The notes below the pieces were generated by a model that saw only the letters and a list, made by a program, of their open reading frames with translations, was not told the origin of the DNA and did no database searches. DNA of 64,000 nt. Source: Myxococcales bacterium 68-20. Its GTDB lineage: Bacteria; Myxococcota_A; Polyangia; Polyangiales; Polyangiaceae. Shown here one piece after another: positions 44,708 to 53,235 of this stretch (positions are counted from its first letter, which is position 1; each line of letters begins with the position of its first letter). Both the position numbers and the translations under genes were made by a program. The DNA lies in NCBI GenBank assembly GCA_001899635.1, contig MKVQ01000013.1, positions 84,771 to 148,770 of the forward strand, given 5' to 3'.

Positions 44708-45520
44708 TCAGCGCGGCGCGTACGCGAAGCTGTAGGCGAGCCCGGCCTTCGTGCCGCGTACGAGCTGGTTGCGCGCCAGGCCGTCGCCGAGCAGGACGGG
44801 CGCCGCGTCGGCGCTCTTCGGTACGTCCGTGAAGTCGACCTGCTCGAACCACATGGGGAGCTTGACCGTGATCGTCACCGTCCCGTCGCGCTCCATGTCC
44901 GTGATCACGAAGGGGCAGCCCTCGATTTGAGGCAGGCCCTTCGTGTTCGCGACCTCGCTCGGCGCGATCTCCGCGCGGAAGGCCCGAGTCTCGGCGTCCT
45001 TGGTCGCGGTGCCTTCGAGGACGATGACGTTCGCGCCCAGCTCCGCAGCCAGCGGGCCCGCGGCGGGCGCGGCGAAGCTGAACGTCGCGGAGCGCACGAG
45101 CCCGGTCACGCCCTCGCCGCTTCCGACCTTGCCGCCGGCAAGCAAGTCTGCCGACGACGACGCGAGCATCTCGCCTTTGGCGTTGCCGGGGACGTAGTGG
45201 CCGGGGTGCGCAAAGGCGCTCTTCACGAAGCCTCCCGACAAGCCCCGGCCACCACGCGGTCCATTGCCGGCGAAGAGCGTCTCGCCATCGTAGAAGTAGA
45301 ACGCACCGGTCGCGACGGCGGCCTTCGTGAGCGTCACGTTCCAGCCCTTCGCGTTCGTGAACTGCGGCGAGTCGGAGCTCGCCTTGATCTCGACGTCGAG
45401 CGCGATGCGCCGACCGGTCGTGCTGCTGCCTTCATCGCTGCAGCCGATCGGGACGCTCCCGATGACGAGGACGGCGGCGGCGAGCATCGAGGAGGTGACG
45501 AGGCGGAGGAATCTGTTCAT
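44708..45520 (-). CDS. lipoprotein downstream of the TonB receptor, unknown
   Basis: 270 residues; signal ends GSVPIGC. The mature part is a beta-rich domain (ALDVEIKASSDSPQFTNAKG, WNVTLTKAAVATGAFYFYDG) with an AHPGHYVPGNAKGEM loop containing two His. It resembles the other lipoproteins here in style but no family is recognised. It begins 12 bases after the receptor stop and so is in its operon. A role as outer-leaflet partner of the receptor is likely. It is followed by 78 bases carrying the two operators. Confidence 0.7.
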   Translation of the reverse strand: MNRFLRLVTSSMLAAAVLVIGSVPIGCSDEGSSTTGRRIALDVEIKASSDSPQFTNAKGWNVTLTKAAVATGAFYFYDGETLFAGNGPRGGRGLSGGFVKSAFAHPGHYVPGNAKGEMLASSSADLLAGGKVGSGEGVTGLVRSATFSFAAPAAGPLAAELGANVIVLEGTATKDAETRAFRAEIAPSEVANTKGLPQIEGCPFVITDMERDGTVTITVKLPMWFEQVDFTDVPKSADAAPVLLGDGLARNQLVRGTKAGLAYSFAYAPR

Positions 45521-45532
45521 GGTGGGCTCCCC

Positions 45533-47986
45533 TCACACGCGAAGCGTGAGCGAGAAGAAAAAGGTCCGGGGCGGACCGACGGTGACATGGCTGAACGGCA
45601 CGCGCGCGGGGTTTGCCGCGCGCGTGAAGTTCGAGGCGTAGACGAACTGGCCGTCGTACCAGTTCGCGTCGAGGACATTGAAGACGTCGACGCCGAGCTC
45701 GACCTCCTTCAGGCGAAGGCCGGCGGACGCATCGACGAGAAACACGTTCCGTCCCACCTCGCCGAACGGGAGCGGACGCCCGACGAGGCCTTCGAGGCCG
45801 GCGCCGACGCGCCCCTCGACGTCGCGGCCGAGCACGCGTCCGAGCTTCTGCTTCAGAGCGGCGTCGGTGCGGAGGACCAGCTGCGGGACGTAAGGGAGGA
45901 GATCGCCCTTTCCGTACTTCGAGCTCGCTCCGGTGAACGCCGCATGCGTGTACGTCGCGCTGCTCGACAGGAGGAGCAGATCGTTGGCTCGCGCCGTCAT
46001 CTCCGCTGCGATTCCCTTGCGCGCGGTGCCGGGGACGCGCTCGTTGCGCGCCGTCGCCGGGTCGAACACGAGGTCCTCGGACAGATCGGTGTAGAAGCCG
46101 GCGAGCGATCCCGCGAGGCGCGCGCCGTCGGAGTAGCGGAGCCCGAGCTCGTAGCTCGCCACCTCGGTCAGAAACGTGCGCTCGCCGTTCGAGAGACCAC
46201 GTGCCTGGGGCGAACGGAATCCGTCGCCGTAGCTCGCCACGAGGTGCGTCCGCGGCAGCACGCTGTAATCGACCGTCAGCTTCTTCCCGAAGTGAGCGCC
46301 CTGCGCGGCGCGAGCCTGCTGCGGCCCGAGCACCCCCTGCGCGTTCACCCGGTCCGTAGCGGCGTACGAGAGACCGTCGACTCGGATGCCGCCTCGAAGC
46401 GCGAGCCGCTGGATCGGATGGACCGCCGCATCGGCATAGCCGGCGACGTTCGTGCCGCGCACGGCCGCGTCGACGAGCGTCTGCGTGGGGACGTCGTTGA
46501 GATCGGAGAGGCGGCGCTGCGACTGCTCGATGATGTCGTGTCGTCCGTAAACGCCGATCTCGACTGCGTCGCGGGGCGAGAGCAGCTTGACGCCCTTCCG
46601 ATACGACGCCGTGGCTCCGGCAGTGATGCTCTCGTTCACCTGCTGGGTGTTGTCGCTCTCGAATCGATCCGCGCCGCCGCGCTGCGTGTCGAGGAAGTAG
46701 CCGGTGAAGTTCTGCCGGAGCTGGAGCGTGCGGAAGACGACGAACGGTGCGACCGTCCAGCGCCCGCCGTCGTCGTCCTTGTGGAGCTCGAGGAGGAGCT
46801 GGTTCCGGCTCGAGTACCCGCCCTGTTTCGGATCGAGCGTCGCGAAACGATCGAGTCGGCCCGACTCGATGTCGGACGCGGGGACGACGCCCGCCGAGTC
46901 GTAGCGCCCGGAGAATGTGGACGCGAGGACGCGAAGCACGAGCCCGTTCTCGAAGTCGTGCGTCCCCTGCGCCATCATCGACGCCCGGCGCGCCGCGCGG
47001 TTCGGTCCGAATCCGTCGCTGGAGTAGACCTCGCCCGCCGCGAACGTCTCGTCACTCGAGTCCTTCGGGTGATAGGCGAGGAAGAGGCGCTTCGCCCCGA
47101 ACGAGCCGACGGTCCCCTTCACCGTCGCCCCGGGCTCCGAGTAGCCGAGCTTCATCCGGATCGAGCCGGCCACCGCGAAGTCGCCTTGCTTCGGATCGTA
47201 CGTGCCGGGCGTGGCCTGCACCTCGCGAATGACCTCAGGCATCACGAAGTGGAGATCGGCGTAGCCCTGTCCGTGGATATTCGAGACCTCGTTGACCGGG
47301 ACGCCGCCCACCCAGAGCTCGAGGTCCTGTCCGTGGACCGCGTCGAAACCGCGCAGGAAGATCTGGTGCGCCTTCCCGTCACCGGAGTGCTGCGTGACGA
47401 AGACGCCGGGGACGACCGCGAGCGCATCGCTTGCGGTTCGATGCGGCGCGGCCATGATCACGTCGCGACCTCGAACCACCTCGGAAGCGCTGCGCGGAGG
47501 AGGCGTGCCGGAGACCCGGACATCCCGCGTAGGCTCCGCCGCTCCTCCCGCCTCTTCGGCAGCGACGGTCGCCTGGGGCGTCGCGGGAGCCATCTGTAGC
47601 TCCTTCGCCGGAGCGCTCGCGCCCGCGAAGCGCACGACGCTCCGGATCTTCGCCGCTACTGGCTTGCCGTCACGGAGGGCAGGCTCGAACGTCCATGTCC
47701 GCGCGGCCGCGATCGCGGCGCGGTCGAACTCCGGGCTCACCGTCGCCTCGACCTCGGCGCTCGTCACGCGCCCGTCTTCTCCGAGGAGGAGGACGACCGG
47801 AACGACGACGTCGTGCGTCTCTGCGTGGCCGCCCGGCCACGCAGGCGCCGGCTGCGTCTTCGGTCGCGGCTGGACGACGTCGTGGGCGAGCGCGGGGCCG
47901 GCTCCGAGCATCGACGCGCCTGCAATCGCGAGCGCGAGCGACCAGCGCGTGCAGGCGGTACGACCCATCGAGACGGTTCGTAGCAT
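45533..47986 (-). CDS. TonB-dependent receptor with N-terminal TonB-like domain
   Basis: 817 residues. After the signal peptide (ASMLGAGPALA) comes a TonB C-terminal-type domain, about 45-115: VVVPVVLLLGEDGRVTSAEV, then FDRAAIAAARTWTFEPALRD. Next is the plug domain (HRTASDALAVVPGVFVTQHS, LRGFDAVHGQDLELWVGGVP) and a 22-strand barrel ending FFFSLTLRV. The receptor probably imports a nickel chelate. A 28-bp NikR-type palindrome overlaps the ATG at 47986, so the real start may be ATG at 47968. The fused TonB-like part replaces or copies the usual energy transducer; this layout occurs in other Myxococcota receptors. Confidence 0.85.
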   Translation of the reverse strand: MLRTVSMGRTACTRWSLALAIAGASMLGAGPALAHDVVQPRPKTQPAPAWPGGHAETHDVVVPVVLLLGEDGRVTSAEVEATVSPEFDRAAIAAARTWTFEPALRDGKPVAAKIRSVVRFAGASAPAKELQMAPATPQATVAAEEAGGAAEPTRDVRVSGTPPPRSASEVVRGRDVIMAAPHRTASDALAVVPGVFVTQHSGDGKAHQIFLRGFDAVHGQDLELWVGGVPVNEVSNIHGQGYADLHFVMPEVIREVQATPGTYDPKQGDFAVAGSIRMKLGYSEPGATVKGTVGSFGAKRLFLAYHPKDSSDETFAAGEVYSSDGFGPNRAARRASMMAQGTHDFENGLVLRVLASTFSGRYDSAGVVPASDIESGRLDRFATLDPKQGGYSSRNQLLLELHKDDDGGRWTVAPFVVFRTLQLRQNFTGYFLDTQRGGADRFESDNTQQVNESITAGATASYRKGVKLLSPRDAVEIGVYGRHDIIEQSQRRLSDLNDVPTQTLVDAAVRGTNVAGYADAAVHPIQRLALRGGIRVDGLSYAATDRVNAQGVLGPQQARAAQGAHFGKKLTVDYSVLPRTHLVASYGDGFRSPQARGLSNGERTFLTEVASYELGLRYSDGARLAGSLAGFYTDLSEDLVFDPATARNERVPGTARKGIAAEMTARANDLLLLSSSATYTHAAFTGASSKYGKGDLLPYVPQLVLRTDAALKQKLGRVLGRDVEGRVGAGLEGLVGRPLPFGEVGRNVFLVDASAGLRLKEVELGVDVFNVLDANWYDGQFVYASNFTRAANPARVPFSHVTVGPPRTFFFSLTLRV

Positions 47987-48007
47987 GATTCCGGCGAGTC
48001 GTGTCAC
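47980..48007. promoter_or_regulatory. NikR-type operator 3
   Basis: GTAGCATG-N12-CGTGTCAC, 28 bp, at the 5' end of the TonB receptor gene. Same geometry as operators 1 and 2. If it is real, the receptor is likely to start at 47968, just downstream. Confidence 0.65.
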
Positions 48008-48068
48008 GGAGCGTGGCGGAACGATGGTTCGCCGCTCGGGACCGGGCCTCGCCCTGGCTCGCCTCGCG

Positions 48069-48635
48069 TCAGGCTCGTCGTCGTCGTGCGGAGACCTTCC
48101 GCCCCGCCGCGACCGGCTCGTGGTCGTGGTCATGGCCGTGCTCGTGGTCATGGCCATGGCTGTGGTCGTGCACCGCGCTCTTCGCCCGTGATCGCGCACC
48201 GCCGCCCCGAGAGGTCGCCGGCTTCGCCGGGGGCGCGATCGCGATCACCTCCATGCCTCCGTGCTTCACCCCGCGCGTGGCGAGCAGCTTCCCGCCCGCG
48301 CGCTTCAGCTCGTCGGACGGGCCCTTCATCACGATGACCTCGAGGCAGTGATCGTGATCGAGGTGCACATGGAGCGCCGAGTTGACCTTGTCTCCGAGCG
48401 CGTGCTGGAACTCGGTGAGCCGCTCGGTGAGGTCGCGGACGTGATGGTCGTAGACGAGCGTGAGCGACGCGACGGCGTTCGCTCCGGTGGTGACACGCGC
48501 GCGCGTGACCTCCGCACGGACGAGATCACGAAGCAGCTCCGACCGCGTGCCGCCACGCTCCGCTACGAGCGCGTCGAACTCCTCGAGCAGCGATCCCTCC
48601 ATCGCGACGCCGAAACGAACCAGAGAATCCTTCAT
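48069..48635 (-). CDS. nikR: nickel-responsive regulator NikR with His-rich tail
   Basis: Ribbon-helix-helix repressor of 188 residues from ATG at 48635. The N-terminal RHH domain reads LVRFGVAMEGSLLEEFDALV. The ACT-like nickel domain keeps the four ligands: His in EFQHALGD, LHVHLDHDHC with both His and the Cys. Beyond the normal ~140 residues is an extra tail, HDHSHGHDHEHGHDHDHE, that could hold several metal ions. With nickel bound NikR usually represses uptake genes; three matching operators are in this window. A UUCG-loop inverted repeat (48655-48674) lies in its leader. Confidence 0.93.
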   Translation of the reverse strand: MKDSLVRFGVAMEGSLLEEFDALVAERGGTRSELLRDLVRAEVTRARVTTGANAVASLTLVYDHHVRDLTERLTEFQHALGDKVNSALHVHLDHDHCLEVIVMKGPSDELKRAGGKLLATRGVKHGGMEVIAIAPPAKPATSRGGGARSRAKSAVHDHSHGHDHEHGHDHDHEPVAAGRKVSARRRRA

Positions 48636-48892
48636 CGGGGCGCATCCTAAAGCACCGATCCGTTCGCGGACCGGGTATTTCCGCCGAGCTCCGAGCATGG
48701 CGCGACGCGATTCGGCCCGGAACGCGCTCTTCGACCGGCCAACCGATCCGACAGCGCCGCTCGCACGTAGCCCATGCGGGCCGTCGCCACGACAGCCTTC
48801 AATCCACCTTCAGATTGGGGCCACCCGCAGCGGAGAGCGCCTCATCTGACGCGCACGTGGGTGCGCTGCATGGTGTAAGCTCGGATGGGATT

Positions 48893-49555: not shown

Positions 49556-49768
49556 TCACCACGCGTAGCGCGCGTCGGTGTCGTCGATCACCAGCACCTC
49601 GGTCGAGGGCGGAGTGACGAGCGCCCAGCGCCAGTGACCGCGGGCGTGGACCTCGCAGGCCCACTCCTCGTGTGGCTGCTCGTCCTCACCGCTGATCAGG
49701 ATGATCCACGGCGCGGGACCACCGCAGTCGAAGCAGCGGCCGGGCTCGGCGTCGTTCTCGAACTCCAT
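49556..49768 (-). CDS. small zinc-ribbon-like protein
   Basis: 70 residues from ATG at 49768 (an ATG at 49786 would add six). CFDCGGPAPW and WACEVHARGHW supply Cys and His for one zinc site. Acidic (ENDAEPG, DEQPHEEW) and with no signal peptide. It lies 60 bases after the DUF2063 gene in the same direction, so it may belong to the RiPP operon. No family recognised. Confidence 0.6.
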   Translation of the reverse strand: MEFENDAEPGRCFDCGGPAPWIILISGEDEQPHEEWACEVHARGHWRWALVTPPSTEVLVIDDTDARYAW

Positions 49769-49828
49769 GTTCGCGATCGAGTGCAACGCACATGCCCTCG
49801 CCGACGCGCCGCCGCGCGATGGCCGCGG

Positions 49829-50689
49829 TCAGGCTTCGCGCGCGCCGAGCAGGACGCCGCGCTCGCCGAGGTCGGCGAGGAGGCGAGCCGCTCCTCCGAG
49901 CACGGCATCGTCGAGCGGATGCGCCTTCGCCGCGCACGCAGCGACCATCGCCGAACCGAGCGCCTCCCCGACGAACAGGCGCTCGAGGATCGCTGCCGCG
50001 AGCGGCGTCAGCTCGAGGAAACGAGAGCGATGCTCCGCGTCGCGATAGACGAGGATCGACACGGGCCGCTCCTCGGGCTCCGCGTCGAGGTCGCCGCGCG
50101 GAACGAGGTTCACCGCCCAGTCGAGGTGGATGAGCTGCTTCGGTTCGGCAAAGACGAGCGGGCGATCGGCCGCGACGTCCGCGAGCGGCGGGGGCGGCAG
50201 CGGGCGTGGGGCGACGCTGATCGTGAAGTCGAGCAGCTCGAGCTCGGCATGGTCGGCGATCCAGCGCGGAAGTCGGGCATCGGCGCGCCAGCGCGGCGCG
50301 GCCCAGGCGAGGAACTCCGAGGGCACGTCACGCAGGTGCGACGTGCGCGGACCGACCTCGTCGAGGAACGCCGAGATCGCTCGGTCGAGCTCGCCGGGGA
50401 CGCGCGCCTCGAGCCGCGCCCGGGTGTGCTCGAGCATCCTTTCGATCACACTTGTCACGTTGTGGCGGACGAGCCGCCGGTAGAGCCCGAGGCGACGCGG
50501 CGACGCGAGGAGCGCTTCCGCGTCCTCGCCCGCGACCCCATGCGCGGCGAGGAAGCCCGCGAGGTCGGCGTCGAACGCGACGTCGGCATCCGCTCCGAAG
50601 CACGCCGTCGCCATCATCGCCTGGAGCCGGTCCGTCGCGTTCACGCTCGCGGTCGCGGTCGCGGTCGCGTTCACGTTCGCGCGCTTCAT
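49829..50689 (-). CDS. DUF2063 RiPP partner protein (BufC/HvfC-like)
   Basis: Partner of the MNIO enzyme: DUF2063 proteins bind the precursor leader and form a complex with the DUF692 enzyme. 286 residues. After a short low-complexity head (TATATASVNATDRLQAMM), residues 25-115 form the helical putative DNA-binding-type domain (HGVAGEDAEALLASPRRLGL YRRLVRHNV region), followed by the C-terminal domain (VLVYRD-type strands, SILVYRDAEHRSRFLEL, LAAAILERLFVGEALGSAMV). The start overlaps the enzyme stop (ATGA at 50686-50689), a tight coupling seen for these pairs. Confidence 0.85.
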   Translation of the reverse strand: MKRANVNATATATASVNATDRLQAMMATACFGADADVAFDADLAGFLAAHGVAGEDAEALLASPRRLGLYRRLVRHNVTSVIERMLEHTRARLEARVPGELDRAISAFLDEVGPRTSHLRDVPSEFLAWAAPRWRADARLPRWIADHAELELLDFTISVAPRPLPPPPLADVAADRPLVFAEPKQLIHLDWAVNLVPRGDLDAEPEERPVSILVYRDAEHRSRFLELTPLAAAILERLFVGEALGSAMVAACAAKAHPLDDAVLGGAARLLADLGERGVLLGAREA

Positions 50690-51639
50690 CGCGCGCCCTC
50701 CCCGACCGCGCGCGCACTCGCACGACGGCCGTGCTTCGCGGTCGCGCGTTGCCAGACCTCGTCGATGCGACGGACCTCGGCGAGGAGCTCGTCGAGCGGC
50801 GGGATCGACTGGTCGCGCTCGAGGAGGACCGGCACCGGTCCCGTCTTCTCGAGCGTGCGTTCGAGGAGCGCCATCACCTCGCCGGCGACGTCGCTCCCGT
50901 GGGTGTCGACGATGAGCATCCCTTCGTGCTTCGAGAGATCCGCCGGGCGCTCGCCGAGGACGAAGTCGTTCGCCCCGCCGGTCGACGGCTCCGAGAACCA
51001 GTCGTGACCGGCGACGTGCATCTGGACGACGCGATCGAGCGGGATCGTGCGCATCCACTCATCGACGTCGTAACCGAAGTTCGTCGCGTTCACCCACGCG
51101 TTGTTCACGTCGAGCATCAGCCCGCAGTCGGCCGCTTCGCAGACGCTCGCGATGAACTCCGCTTCCGTCATCTCGCGCTTGCCGGGATGGAGGTAGAAGC
51201 TGACGTTCTCGACCGCCATCGGACGCCCGATCGCGTCCTGCGCGCGCTTGATCCGATCGGCGACGCGGACGACCTCCGAACGCTTGAAAGCGAGCGGCAA
51301 AAGGTCGTGGAGGACGACGCCGCCGAACGTGCTGAAGCAGAGATGATCCGAGTGCCACGGACTGCCGGTGCGAGCGATGAAGTCGCGCAGCCCGGCGAGG
51401 TAGTCCTCACGCAACGGGTCGACGCCGCCGAGGCTCATCGTCAGACCGTGGGTGACGATCGGCCAGAGGTCCTTCGCGCGTTCGAGCGCCTCGTCGTAGT
51501 GGCCGCCGCGCCCCATGTAGTTCTCGGGCGAGACCTCGATGAACGGGAGCGCGGGCTTCAGCTCGAGGATCTCGTCGATGAAGTCCCAGCGGAGCCCGAG
51601 GCCAACGCCGTCGATCGTCTGGCCCTTCGCCGTCACCAT
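50686..51639 (-). CDS. MNIO-family (DUF692) RiPP-modifying enzyme, BufB/HvfB-like
   Basis: Multinuclear non-haem iron oxygenase of 317 residues, normal length. ATG at 51639 has GAGG eight bases upstream. Ligand motifs are in place: EVSPENYMGRGG, SPWHSDHLCFS, MAVENVSFYLHP, LMLDVNNAWVNA, MHVAGHDWF and VDTHGSDV. Enzymes of this family oxidise cysteines in short repeated motifs of a precursor peptide (EGKCG in HvfA, thiooxazoles in bufferins). The likely substrate here is the repeat peptide encoded just upstream. The partner DUF2063 protein follows with an ATGA overlap. Confidence 0.92.
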   Translation of the reverse strand: MVTAKGQTIDGVGLGLRWDFIDEILELKPALPFIEVSPENYMGRGGHYDEALERAKDLWPIVTHGLTMSLGGVDPLREDYLAGLRDFIARTGSPWHSDHLCFSTFGGVVLHDLLPLAFKRSEVVRVADRIKRAQDAIGRPMAVENVSFYLHPGKREMTEAEFIASVCEAADCGLMLDVNNAWVNATNFGYDVDEWMRTIPLDRVVQMHVAGHDWFSEPSTGGANDFVLGERPADLSKHEGMLIVDTHGSDVAGEVMALLERTLEKTGPVPVLLERDQSIPPLDELLAEVRRIDEVWQRATAKHGRRASARAVGEGAR

Positions 51640-51764
51640 GTGTCGTTCCTCGAACCTCCGTATCACCTGCAGTCGATCTCACAAAAGCATTCGGCCGGAC
51701 GCAGCGCTCACGCGCGACGTCCGGCCGATGCTCGAGCTCGCTTCGACGAGCTCGCGGCCCGTGC

Positions 51765-52250
51765 TCACTTCTTCGCGGAGCAGGTGCCAGCGCCGCAAGC
51801 CGCAGCGCCGCTCTTCTTCGCCGCCGGAGCAGCCGGCTTCTTCGTGTCGGCCGGCTTCTTCGCGTCGGCCGGCTTCGCGTCCGCAGGCGCCGCCTCGGGC
51901 TTCGCAGCCGGAGCCGCGGCCGCCGGCGTCGTCTCGGCCGGCTTCGCATCACCGGCCGCCTTCTCCGCCGGCTTGGCTCCGCACCCCGCCTCGCCCGCCT
52001 TGTGGCCCGCGCTGCAGCCCGCCTCGCCCGCCTTGTGGCCCGCACTGCAGCCCGCCTCGCCCGCCTTGTGGCCTGCGCTGCAGCCCGCCTCGCCCGGCTT
52101 CGCATCGCCGCCGGTCGCCGCCGGGGTCTCGCTCGCGTTGACCGGTGAGCTCGCCGGCTTGTCGCCGCCGCCGCAGGCCGCCATCAGGACGCTCGTGCCG
52201 AGAACGGCGAGCGCTCCGGCAATGTTCTCTACGGACAGGTTCGGTCGCAT
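51765..52250 (-). CDS. candidate RiPP precursor with EAGCSAGHKAG repeats
   Basis: 161 residues from ATG at 52250, after a strong AAGGAGTG. Signal or lipoprotein leader ends VLMAAC (Cys26). Residues 54-86 are three perfect copies of EAGCSAGHKAG, then a broken fourth, EAGCGAKPAEK; Cys at 57, 68, 79 and 90. A long Lys/Ala/Pro repeat spacer (AKPADAKKPADTKKP type) leads to a C-terminal CGAGTCSAKK with Cys152 and Cys157. The place, exported leader and repeated EXXC motif match precursors of MNIO systems (HvfA/BufA), but the repeat itself is not one I recognise. Probably a periplasmic metal-binding peptide, copper being the usual case. Confidence 0.82.
   Translation of the reverse strand: MRPNLSVENIAGALAVLGTSVLMAACGGGDKPASSPVNASETPAATGGDAKPGEAGCSAGHKAGEAGCSAGHKAGEAGCSAGHKAGEAGCGAKPAEKAAGDAKPAETTPAAAAPAAKPEAAPADAKPADAKKPADTKKPAAPAAKKSGAAACGAGTCSAKK
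51985..52099. repeat. 33-bp perfect tandem repeat inside the precursor gene
   Basis: Units at 51985-52017, 52018-52050 and 52051-52083 plus 16 bases of a fourth. They encode the EAGCSAGHKAG repeats. At most three silent differences are visible (for example CCCGC against CCTGC), so the repeats expanded recently or are kept identical. Confidence 0.9.
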
Positions 52251-52380: not shown

Positions 52381-53235
52381 TCACGGCCGCAGCTTCGCGC
52401 GGACGTCGAGCGTGATGTCCGCGTTGTCTGCCACCTTCGTTCCGAGGAGGTGAAATGAGCCCTTGGCGAGCTTTCCGAAGCCATCGCGCGGCTTGACGTC
52501 GTGCTCGGCGAGCACGACACGGAGCGGCGCCTTCGTCTTGATCCAAACGGCCTTCGGCATGTCGGCGGCGGCACCGGCGTCGTAGCGGAACGCAATCTCC
52601 ACGTTCGCCTCGCGCTCCACCTTGTGACCGTGGACGAGGAGCTCTCCCTTCGTCGTGAGCGTCACGGTGCGGACATCGTCGGAGCCGTCCTTCGTCGGCG
52701 CGACCTTGGTCACGTCCGTCGCGCTCGGGTTCTCGATCGAGCGGATGGCGTAGACCGCATAGCGATGCGTCTCTTTCGTCTTCTCGTCGAGCTTGCCCGA
52801 CTCACCGTCTCCGACCTCGAGCCAGGTGCGTGCGTGCACCGTCTGCGACGCGTTCTTCTCCTGCTCCGCGAACGTCGTCGTCGCGATCGTCGAGAGGTCG
52901 ATCTTCACCTCGCCACGCGAGCTCGCGAGGTTCGCGAGGTCGATGTCGAGGGTGCCCGAGCCGCCGGTGGTCGCCGCCTTGATCTTCTCCTTCGGGGCTT
53001 CCATCTCGATCGACGTATTGCTCTCGCCGTCGATGACGAACCGCTTCACCGAAGCACCGAGCGGAGGCGTCGTCGACGCGAGCGCGCTCGCGTTCGCGAC
53101 TGGAGCCAGGTTCGGCTTCTTGTCCTCGCATCCCCCGAGCAGGAGGAGCATCCCTGCGCCGATCCCAACGGCCGTCGCGCTCGCGCTCGCGATCGCGGTC
53201 CAAGACTTGTTCGTCACGCGTCTCTCTCCCTGCAT
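52381..53235 (-). CDS. YceI-like lipoprotein
   Basis: 284 residues from ATG at 53235. The signal ends LLLGGC, giving a lipobox Cys. The mature part has the YceI pattern: KRFVIDGESNTSIEMEAPKE, then SGTLDIDLANLASSRGEV, DLSTIATTTFAEQEKNASQT and later strands such as KTKAPLRVVLAEHDVKPRD. YceI proteins are lipocalin-like and bind isoprenoid or other lipid molecules in the periplasm. It lies 131 bases upstream of the RiPP precursor gene and in the same direction; membership of that operon is possible but not shown. Confidence 0.7.
   Translation of the reverse strand: MQGERRVTNKSWTAIASASATAVGIGAGMLLLLGGCEDKKPNLAPVANASALASTTPPLGASVKRFVIDGESNTSIEMEAPKEKIKAATTGGSGTLDIDLANLASSRGEVKIDLSTIATTTFAEQEKNASQTVHARTWLEVGDGESGKLDEKTKETHRYAVYAIRSIENPSATDVTKVAPTKDGSDDVRTVTLTTKGELLVHGHKVEREANVEIAFRYDAGAAADMPKAVWIKTKAPLRVVLAEHDVKPRDGFGKLAKGSFHLLGTKVADNADITLDVRAKLRP

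Follow-up and report, generated by a model that had tools for sequence, protein, structure and literature searches.

What does the MNIO enzyme of Myxococcales bacterium 68-20 act on, and what would its product be for? The locus that raises this question lies in a stretch of 64,000 nucleotides of contig MKVQ01000013.1, which was analysed as a whole and is referred to here as the window. Four genes on the minus strand are transcribed in the order YceI-fold gene, precursor, MNIO and DUF2063 partner (Table 1). Comparisons with related genomes show that these four genes travel together and that the anatomy of the precursor and its linkage to the enzyme are conserved at the sequence level. The reading that we favour, with a probability of roughly 60%, is that the precursor represents a Polyangiales variant of the captophorins or bufferins, made as a lipoprotein, which would chelate copper or some similar metal at the cell envelope.

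An earlier, sequence-only reading of the window had called this stretch an MNIO locus for a ribosomally synthesized and post-translationally modified peptide (RiPP), an assignment borne out by protein families, gene order and co-occurrence. The DUF692 enzyme and the adjoining DUF2063 partner that it described are present, with matches of 305 bits to PF05114 and 47.4 bits to NGO1945_C (cut-off 27), respectively, and their genes overlap by ATGA at 50686-50689. The YceI/precursor and precursor/MNIO gaps are 130 and 125 bases long, respectively, and the sequences AAGGAG and GAGGA are found upstream of the ATG codons of the precursor and the MNIO (51639). The span proposed for the locus (49556-52250) holds for the three core genes, but it misses the YceI gene and takes in a 76-aa open reading frame (ORF; 49556-49786, minus strand) that does not belong to the core. 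This ORF was rejected as a core gene, being matched in 3 of the 19 other fetched regions; all three matches are in genomes of the same genus (57-81% identity).

Table 1. Genes of the MNIO locus and segments of the precursor, with positions in the window
Feature	Position	Strand	Remarks
YceI-fold lipoprotein-like gene, first of the group	52381-53235	-	284 aa
RiPP precursor	51765-52250	-	161 aa; signal of the lipoprotein type, then Cys repeats, a linker rich in Ala, Pro and Lys, and the CGAGTC tail
Signal region and lipobox-like LMAAC (Cys26)	52173-52250	-	judged by eye and simple rule
33-bp tandem array, 3 x GEAGCSAGHKA + GEAGC (Cys57, 68, 79, 90)	51981-52100	-	3.6 copies, 94% matches, score 212
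Ala/Pro/Lys-rich linker	51810-51980	-	read from the sequence; little conserved in the 13-sequence alignment
Conserved C-terminal tail AAACGAGTCSAKK (Cys152, Cys157)	51768-51806	-	CGAGTC = aa 152-157
MNIO (DUF692, MbnB_TglH_ChrH) enzyme	50686-51639	-	317 aa
DUF2063/HvfC-type partner (PME-type 1)	49829-50689	-	ATGA overlap with the MNIO gene

The precursor begins with MRPNLSVENIAGALAVLGTSVLMAAC-GGG..., continues with three copies of GEAGCSAGHKA (aa 53-85), GEAGCG (aa 86-91) and the Ala/Pro/Lys linker, and ends in AAACGAGTCSAKK. The three perfect repeats and the fourth EAGCG unit were thus found as first described; differences between the perfect copies are confined to synonymous third codon positions, and the repeat is therefore not a product of chance. 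Seven Cys residues are present, i.e. Cys26 in a lipobox-like context, four in the repeats and two in the tail; all six non-lipobox Cys precede Gly or Ser, and four of the six precede Ser. The precursor had been taken for a secreted protein, and a signal is indeed present, but 'lipoprotein' fits better because the N-terminus ends in the lipobox-like LMAAC/GG. No Pfam match, including the DUF2282 domain, was obtained for the precursor at E <= 0.1, and the dipeptide Cys-Lys is absent from its sequence. The NCBIfam model 'invert_tail' scored 17.3 bits on the signal region (cut-off 37), a weak match that was not used. When viral contigs were scanned with the precursor, 40 stretches fitted a pattern, with no relative among them; a tRNA scan found none.

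To place the precursor among its relatives, loci from the searches were merged and duplicates were removed, reducing 69 rows with an enzyme score of at least 380 to 55 unique loci, and the precursors were classified by script. The 31 unique loci whose MNIO scores at least 424 bits against the clade profile, many of which also built that profile, are referred to as the enzyme clade; the other 24 score 380-423. Two genomes with an identical precursor (L066/L166) were counted once. The orthologous enzymes are preceded by a protein of like kind, with a lipobox-like signal, a few Cys units, a low-complexity linker and a tail of the CGAGTC type. The tail Cys pair is spaced four residues apart (C-x4-C) in all 31 clade loci, with column counts of C 31/31, G 31/31, A 27/31, G 29/31, T 29/31 and C 31/31, followed by G, S or A. 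Among the 24 lower-scoring loci, 10 have tail-type precursors, 10 have EGxCG repeats, two were classed as Cys-Lys (one also ending in CGQGTC), one has another type and in one none was found. Tail-type precursors are carried, for instance, by Sorangium cellulosum So ceGT47 (L083), by Polyangium sp. 6x1 (L078, whose enzyme scores 409) and by metagenome-assembled genomes of Polyangiaceae and Myxococcales.

The lipobox-like Cys, judged by a simple rule, is present in all 29 unique orthologues that retain an N-terminus, and the invariant columns of an alignment of 13 precursors are L5, G18, T19, C26, K138, C152-C157, K160 and K161, none of them within the repeats. Internal Cys number from 0 to 5 per precursor and are absent from 10 of the 29 with a complete N-terminus. 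Of 52 internal Cys, 19 have Glu at -3 and 45 have Ala or Gly at -2, and the following residue is Gly in 36, Ser in 11 and Ala in 5. Taken over the 31 precursors, all 114 Cys after the lipobox have a small next residue (Gly in 80 cases, Ser in 22 and Ala in 12; background 50%), counts that are non-independent since the sequences are related.

The CGAGTC end, which the sequence-only reading had named last, turns out to be the strongly conserved element. Since the number of internal Cys varies and the units are relaxed, the repeat noticed first is, judged from these alignments, a local expansion of a relaxed unit. EAGCSAGHKAG was accordingly rejected as a family hallmark: the exact repeat occurs only in the window's own gene among 26 listed precursors, the rest carrying 0-5 relaxed units, read as pentamers. 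The claim of an unfamiliar core and a new class thus holds only in part, the relaxed units resembling the EGSCGGEK and EGKCG repeats found beside other MNIOs. The His and Lys of each unit are a real feature at the level of the genus (HK[AGD]GE[AG]xC in eight of nine same-genus precursors, G005 being the exception).

In 18 genomes, a codon pattern for CGAGTC was counted 41 times and the reversed pattern 36 times. Fourteen of the 41 lie just upstream of a clade enzyme, one per genome in 14 genomes; because these genomes had been picked for a tail already known, the count shows only that the pattern is rare elsewhere. Of 25 matches away from a clade MNIO, eight were read, seven being internal to other proteins and one belonging to a further tail lipoprotein (G005). 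Three tandem CGAGTC units were also observed within a Cys-rich ORF, away from its C-terminus (L191; G030:C1 6757417-6757470).

Linkage to the enzyme is close. In all 31 clade loci, a tail-type precursor lies at most about 450 bases upstream of the enzyme. Some MNIO match (E <= 0.001, window MNIO as query) was present in 48 of 58 related genomes, and the clade enzyme (E <= 1e-90) in 35 of 60 family genomes; for large genomes, where the enzyme and precursor profile searches scored part of the first-pass candidates, such counts are to be read as 'at least'. With the precursor profile at E <= 1e-5, 26 places were identified, two pieces of the window's own gene being counted once: they fall in 23 of the 35 enzyme-bearing genomes and in one of the 25 others, and 22 of the 26 places adjoin an enzyme. 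That enzyme and peptide might never occur together in related genomes had been named as a point that could tell against their link; their co-occurrence favours it. Remote from an enzyme are a precursor at a contig break in G018, where YceI and precursor are present and the enzyme starts another contig; a decayed locus in G384 (L186), in which the start of the precursor runs into an MNIO remnant and a DUF2063-like stretch lies on the opposite strand; and unlinked copies in G020:C75 and G063:C78, with no MNIO in 6 kb. At 1e-3, the profile matched 25 of the 35 enzyme-bearing genomes and five of the 25 others, the latter comprising the decayed locus of G384, a tail precursor at a contig end (G408), a match outside the family (G165) and two unread matches (G012 and G022). 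The profile is weakened by low complexity and missed plainly readable tail precursors in G014, G015, G016 and G032. Three precursor-like lipoproteins (L183, L184 and L196) have no MNIO in the fetched 6, 6 and 2.3 kb, respectively; two of them end in a CGAG[NT]C tail, and L183 does not.

Paralogous MNIO loci of the same genomes (L053-L068) are accompanied by Cys-Lys (CKGxN) precursors in 12 of 15 cases, several with lipobox-like signals. On an enzyme tree of 145 rows, some of them near-copies and 19 of them without a class, six precursor labels require 28 changes, whereas shuffled labels require 81 on average; the classes are automatic, and L175 is labelled Cys-Lys though it ends in CGQGTC.

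The best solved relative of the MNIO is PDB 3bww (E 3.9e-53), and the residues at its motif positions, which we take to be metal ligands, are kept throughout the clade: H64, H99, E144, D177, N180, H208, D245, H247, E274 and D276 in 31 of 31 loci and H212 in 30. In the available part of PMC13419390, 3bww is described as a close relative of HvfB. The pocket of FonB is shaped by Arg16 and Phe250, according to the accessible text of PMC13097082. Their equivalents in the window MNIO, mapped through the motifs GLGxR[RW] and ERD[FQ] and not through the FonB sequence, are Trp18 (R17-W18) and Gln277. Trp (30/31) and Gln, Asn or His (30/31) occupy these positions in the clade; EGKCG enzymes of the set have Arg (22/23) and Phe or Tyr (23/23). 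Trp recurs in just two of 22 further tail-type enzymes, so Trp18 is a marker of the clade and not of the tail. The window genome (G000, 11.9 Mb) contains one MNIO of the clade and one distant MNIO domain, the latter a 93-bit match in a 527-aa ORF (L187 2949-4529, G000:C11).

In both EGKCGEGKCG and the tail segment AAACGAGTCS, the Cys residues are five positions apart and a small residue follows each; on this comparison, the tail has the layout of two EGKCG pentamers in tandem. The accessible text of PMC13097082 reports that FonBC accepts at position 5, besides Gly, only Ala among the variants tested, that it tolerates Ala, Arg or Thr in place of Lys, and that a two-pentamer substrate is modified and a one-pentamer substrate is not. 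By analogy with this account, the two-pentamer requirement matches a tail with two pentamer-spaced Cys, and the rule of a small residue after Cys in the 31 precursors appears close to the preference of FonBC.

The partner scores 26.0 bits against DUF2063, just under the cut-off of 27.2, and 95.9 against HvfC (cut-off 142), and it matches PDB 3dee at E 2.5e-4. It has a tblastn match in all 20 fetched regions, and a DUF2063-type match was found in all 31 clade loci.

A YceI-like tblastn match lies near the MNIO in 18 of the 20 fetched regions (window included), upstream in 17 and downstream in one (G049); the exceptions are G011, where the contig ends near the enzyme, and G002, with none in 18.5 kb. 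Among the 31 clade loci, 24 have a YceI match (in L066/L166 on the opposite strand), and seven do not, although three of the seven (L009, L020 and L074) have less than 1,000 bases upstream, where its presence is not judgeable. The window protein scores 18.9 bits against PF04264 (cut-off 23.7), and two of six other Myxococcota homologues score above the cut-off. Its AlphaFold2 model, built from 18 sequences, has a pLDDT of 78.9 and a pTM of 0.73, and the 19 best PDB matches of the model are YceI-family proteins, 14 of them at E <= 0.001, with 10-15% identity; among them we take BcnA/BcnB, 7bwl and 2x32/2x34, which are not titled YceI, to belong to the family. On this model, the first gene has a YceI fold. 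No paper pairing YceI with MNIO, DUF692, bufferin or DUF2063 was found in a literature search. In loci of the Vampirovibrionia/Obscuribacterales type, a YceI-like ORF was also seen behind the enzyme in six of eight (L087, L088, L089, L093, L112 and L130, not L091 or L119). In the two that were scanned, it is clearly a YceI gene and lies immediately after the DUF2063 partner (L130 5725-6357, 77.6 bits; L089 5726-6382, 75.4 bits); their precursors are His-rich and of the Cys-Lys type, respectively.

The sequence-only reading had treated modification and metal as inference, and so do we. For the favoured metal-chelating lipoprotein, we propose that the DUF2063 protein would present the precursor to the MNIO in the cytoplasm, where the iron centre of the enzyme would oxidise Cys to 5-thiooxazoles, with a loss of 4 Da per residue; the tail pair would be the main target, joined by the four Cys of the repeats. 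The precursor would be exported by Sec and lipidated on Cys26, and its modified Cys, held on a flexible tether at the envelope, would bind copper or some similar metal. A probable helper in the envelope is the YceI-fold lipoprotein, which would bind lipid, quinone or the modified peptide.

Several observations weigh against this reading. The MNIO scores below the NCBIfam cut-offs for MNIO_BufB (274.3; cut-off 310) and HvfB (271.2; cut-off 360) and, by these scores, is related to both named groups, bufferin maturase and HvfB, and inside neither. Since Trp and Gln stand at the presumed specificity positions, product or register could differ. Ser, which follows four of the six candidate Cys, would exceed the position-5 variants that FonBC accepts in the accessible text of PMC13097082. 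Scanning the neighbours against Pfam identified a NikR gene and no copper gene; DoxX is common in known clusters, but in 18 genomes none lies close to this MNIO, the nearest on the same contig being about 100 kb away (G030). The figure of 31 of 31 tail-bearing loci depends on a 424-bit threshold chosen after the table had been seen and on a precursor-picking script that favours tail-bearing ORFs. Taken by itself, the tail label requires 11 changes over the enzyme tree (shuffled 44), so tails are clustered, but without a single clean origin. The partner lies on the opposite strand in 4 of the 31 loci, and no YceI gene is present in 18.5 kb of G002, in 8.4 kb of G028 or in the 4 kb upstream at the Sorangium cellulosum locus L083; the four-gene operon is therefore the usual layout, not the sole one.

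Among the alternatives, the one that survives best, though we consider it unlikely, is that the enzyme makes a different Cys product (e.g. an oxazolone-thioamide), or that the metal is nickel or zinc, or that the role is in redox chemistry; it overlaps in part with the favoured explanation. The Trp and Gln/Asn/His residues, unlike those of the EGKCG enzymes of the set, speak for it, as do the unusual YceI partner and the NikR and TonB-dependent receptor genes nearby, although the NikR gene lies behind a gene on the opposite strand and Trp18 tracks the enzyme clade and not the tail. Moreover, according to the accessible part of PMC13097082, 5-thiooxazole is the group installed in every characterised MNIO-PME1 case, and a product with a band at about 305 nm was still obtained when FonB was varied at Arg15, Arg16 and Phe250.

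Precursor ends can serve enzyme recognition, and this fits a second alternative, in which the tail pair would be a docking or recognition element, or carry free thiols or a disulfide, with only the variable internal units being modified. The internal units, often with Glu at -3, are also more EGxCG-like than the tail. This is nevertheless rather improbable: the 10 of 29 complete precursors without internal Cys have the tail pair as their only candidate, and the tail Cys follow the same rule of a small next residue. That the protein is a Cys-rich lipoprotein sharing the neighbourhood as a separate envelope protein and not an MNIO substrate, as the unlinked family members without MNIO in the stretch might suggest (G020:C75 and G063:C78, 6 kb each; G005:C20, 2.3 kb), is very improbable given the precursor adjoining the enzyme in every clade locus, the agreement of precursor class with the enzyme tree, the joint decay of precursor and MNIO in G384, the Cys-Lys precursors beside the paralogous MNIOs instead, and the enzymes encoded elsewhere in the genomes of the unlinked copies, where modification in trans is possible.

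Beyond the favoured metal-chelating reading, it is a tentative possibility that the tail clade forms a distinct, undescribed subclass, with its own specificity pocket (Trp18, Gln/Asn277), a two-ring metal site on a lipid-anchored tether and a dedicated YceI-fold lipoprotein in its mechanism. If so, the YceI lipoprotein might, for example, hold the tail once modified, or else a lipid or quinone by which the bound metal is kept in reduced form, and the association of enzyme and YceI in Vampirovibrionia-like genomes, in another gene order, would represent an independent second case. Bacteria use MNIO-made thiooxazole peptides against metal stress, a strategy that has been recognised recently. The conserved two-Cys tail, in some species the sole site of non-lipobox Cys, offers a small natural substrate for probing which residues the enzyme reads and lets one ask whether two neighbouring rings form one metal site, and the accompanying gene gives a concrete handle on the role of YceI proteins in such clusters.

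Three genes nearby in the window (44708-48698, minus strand) encode a NikR-type regulator whose end is rich in His, a TonB-dependent receptor that carries a TonB_C domain at its N-terminus, and a lipoprotein of 270 aa. The lipoprotein contains a conserved HPGHYV motif and matches no Pfam family significantly; a DUF1775 assignment (E 0.091) was too weak to be used. A gene on the opposite strand separates the NikR gene from the MNIO group. The receptor and the lipoprotein recur near the MNIO in 5 of 20 regions (window included), and in G035 they directly follow the partner gene on the same strand. Among the matches listed, none for Lactamase_B_2 is within about 35 kb of the MNIO, the nearest being about 36 kb away (G005). 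In G016, DoxX matches were observed about 1 kb from two paralogous MNIO matches.

Among known systems, membership in the Buf1 (DUF2282) bufferins was rejected on the absence of that domain, and membership in the Buf2/Cys-Lys bufferins (BufA2B2C2), whose gene order is alike, on the absence of Cys-Lys; such precursors sit at the paralogous loci, and the window enzyme falls in a different group. The HvfA model NF050137 matches one of 13 family members (E 0.024) and not the window precursor. The available part of PMC12452194 describes, besides Buf1, Buf2 and EGKCG, a CxxxxC class left uncharacterised there (76 proteins, with DoxX genes and, in 54% of clusters, Lactamase_B_2) and hundreds of further signal-bearing ORFs as probable precursors; 'Myxococc' is absent from its main text. 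The accessible text of PMC12636315 mentions an uncharacterised 'Cluster X' of lipoprotein precursors with CxxxxC. Both groups, as described there, share with the window precursor a signal peptide or lipobox and a conserved Cys pair four residues apart beside an MNIO; the CxxxxC clusters of PMC12452194 may differ in their DoxX and Lactamase_B_2 genes, given that no DoxX lies near this MNIO in the 18 genomes and no Lactamase_B_2 close to it among the matches listed. Neither paper, in its available parts, mentions YceI together with MNIO. Since C-GAGT-C fits the CxxxxC wording, the family, compared here by description only, may already be in those lists, in which case novelty would be limited to the link with YceI and the reading as pentamers. 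YceI/TT1927b/BcnA proteins share their fold with the product of the first gene, which is longer and whose homologues mostly score under the Pfam cut-off. NedA of Neisseria dentiae, a lipidated EGKCG precursor (oxazolin) made experimentally (PMC12636315), is a RiPP-lipoprotein hybrid made with an MNIO and a partner, as the window precursor may be; it has EGKCG repeats, with no CGAGTC tail mentioned in the accessible text.

As in MNIO-PME1 clusters, an MNIO with conserved iron-site motifs, an adjoining DUF2063-type partner and an upstream Cys precursor with a Sec signal (by eye and rule) are present. Membership in Buf_EGKCG/oxazolin itself was rejected on the units EAGC[SG] and AAACGAGTCS and on R17-W18 and Q277 in the enzyme instead of Arg-Arg and Phe. 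Compared with the captophorins (Buf_EGKCG/oxazolin, fontiphorin and gonophorin; HvfABC, FonABC and NgoABC; 5-thiooxazoles), the window system lacks Lys at position 3 and Glu at position 1 of the tail, has one conserved terminal pair in place of 17-residue repeats and a long Ala/Pro/Lys linker, and has YceI in place of DoxX and Trp18/Gln277 in place of Arg/Phe. It resembles them in its signal-bearing Cys-pentamer precursor, its MNIO and its DUF2063-type partner, in the small residue after Cys and, in the tail, in Cys placed five apart.

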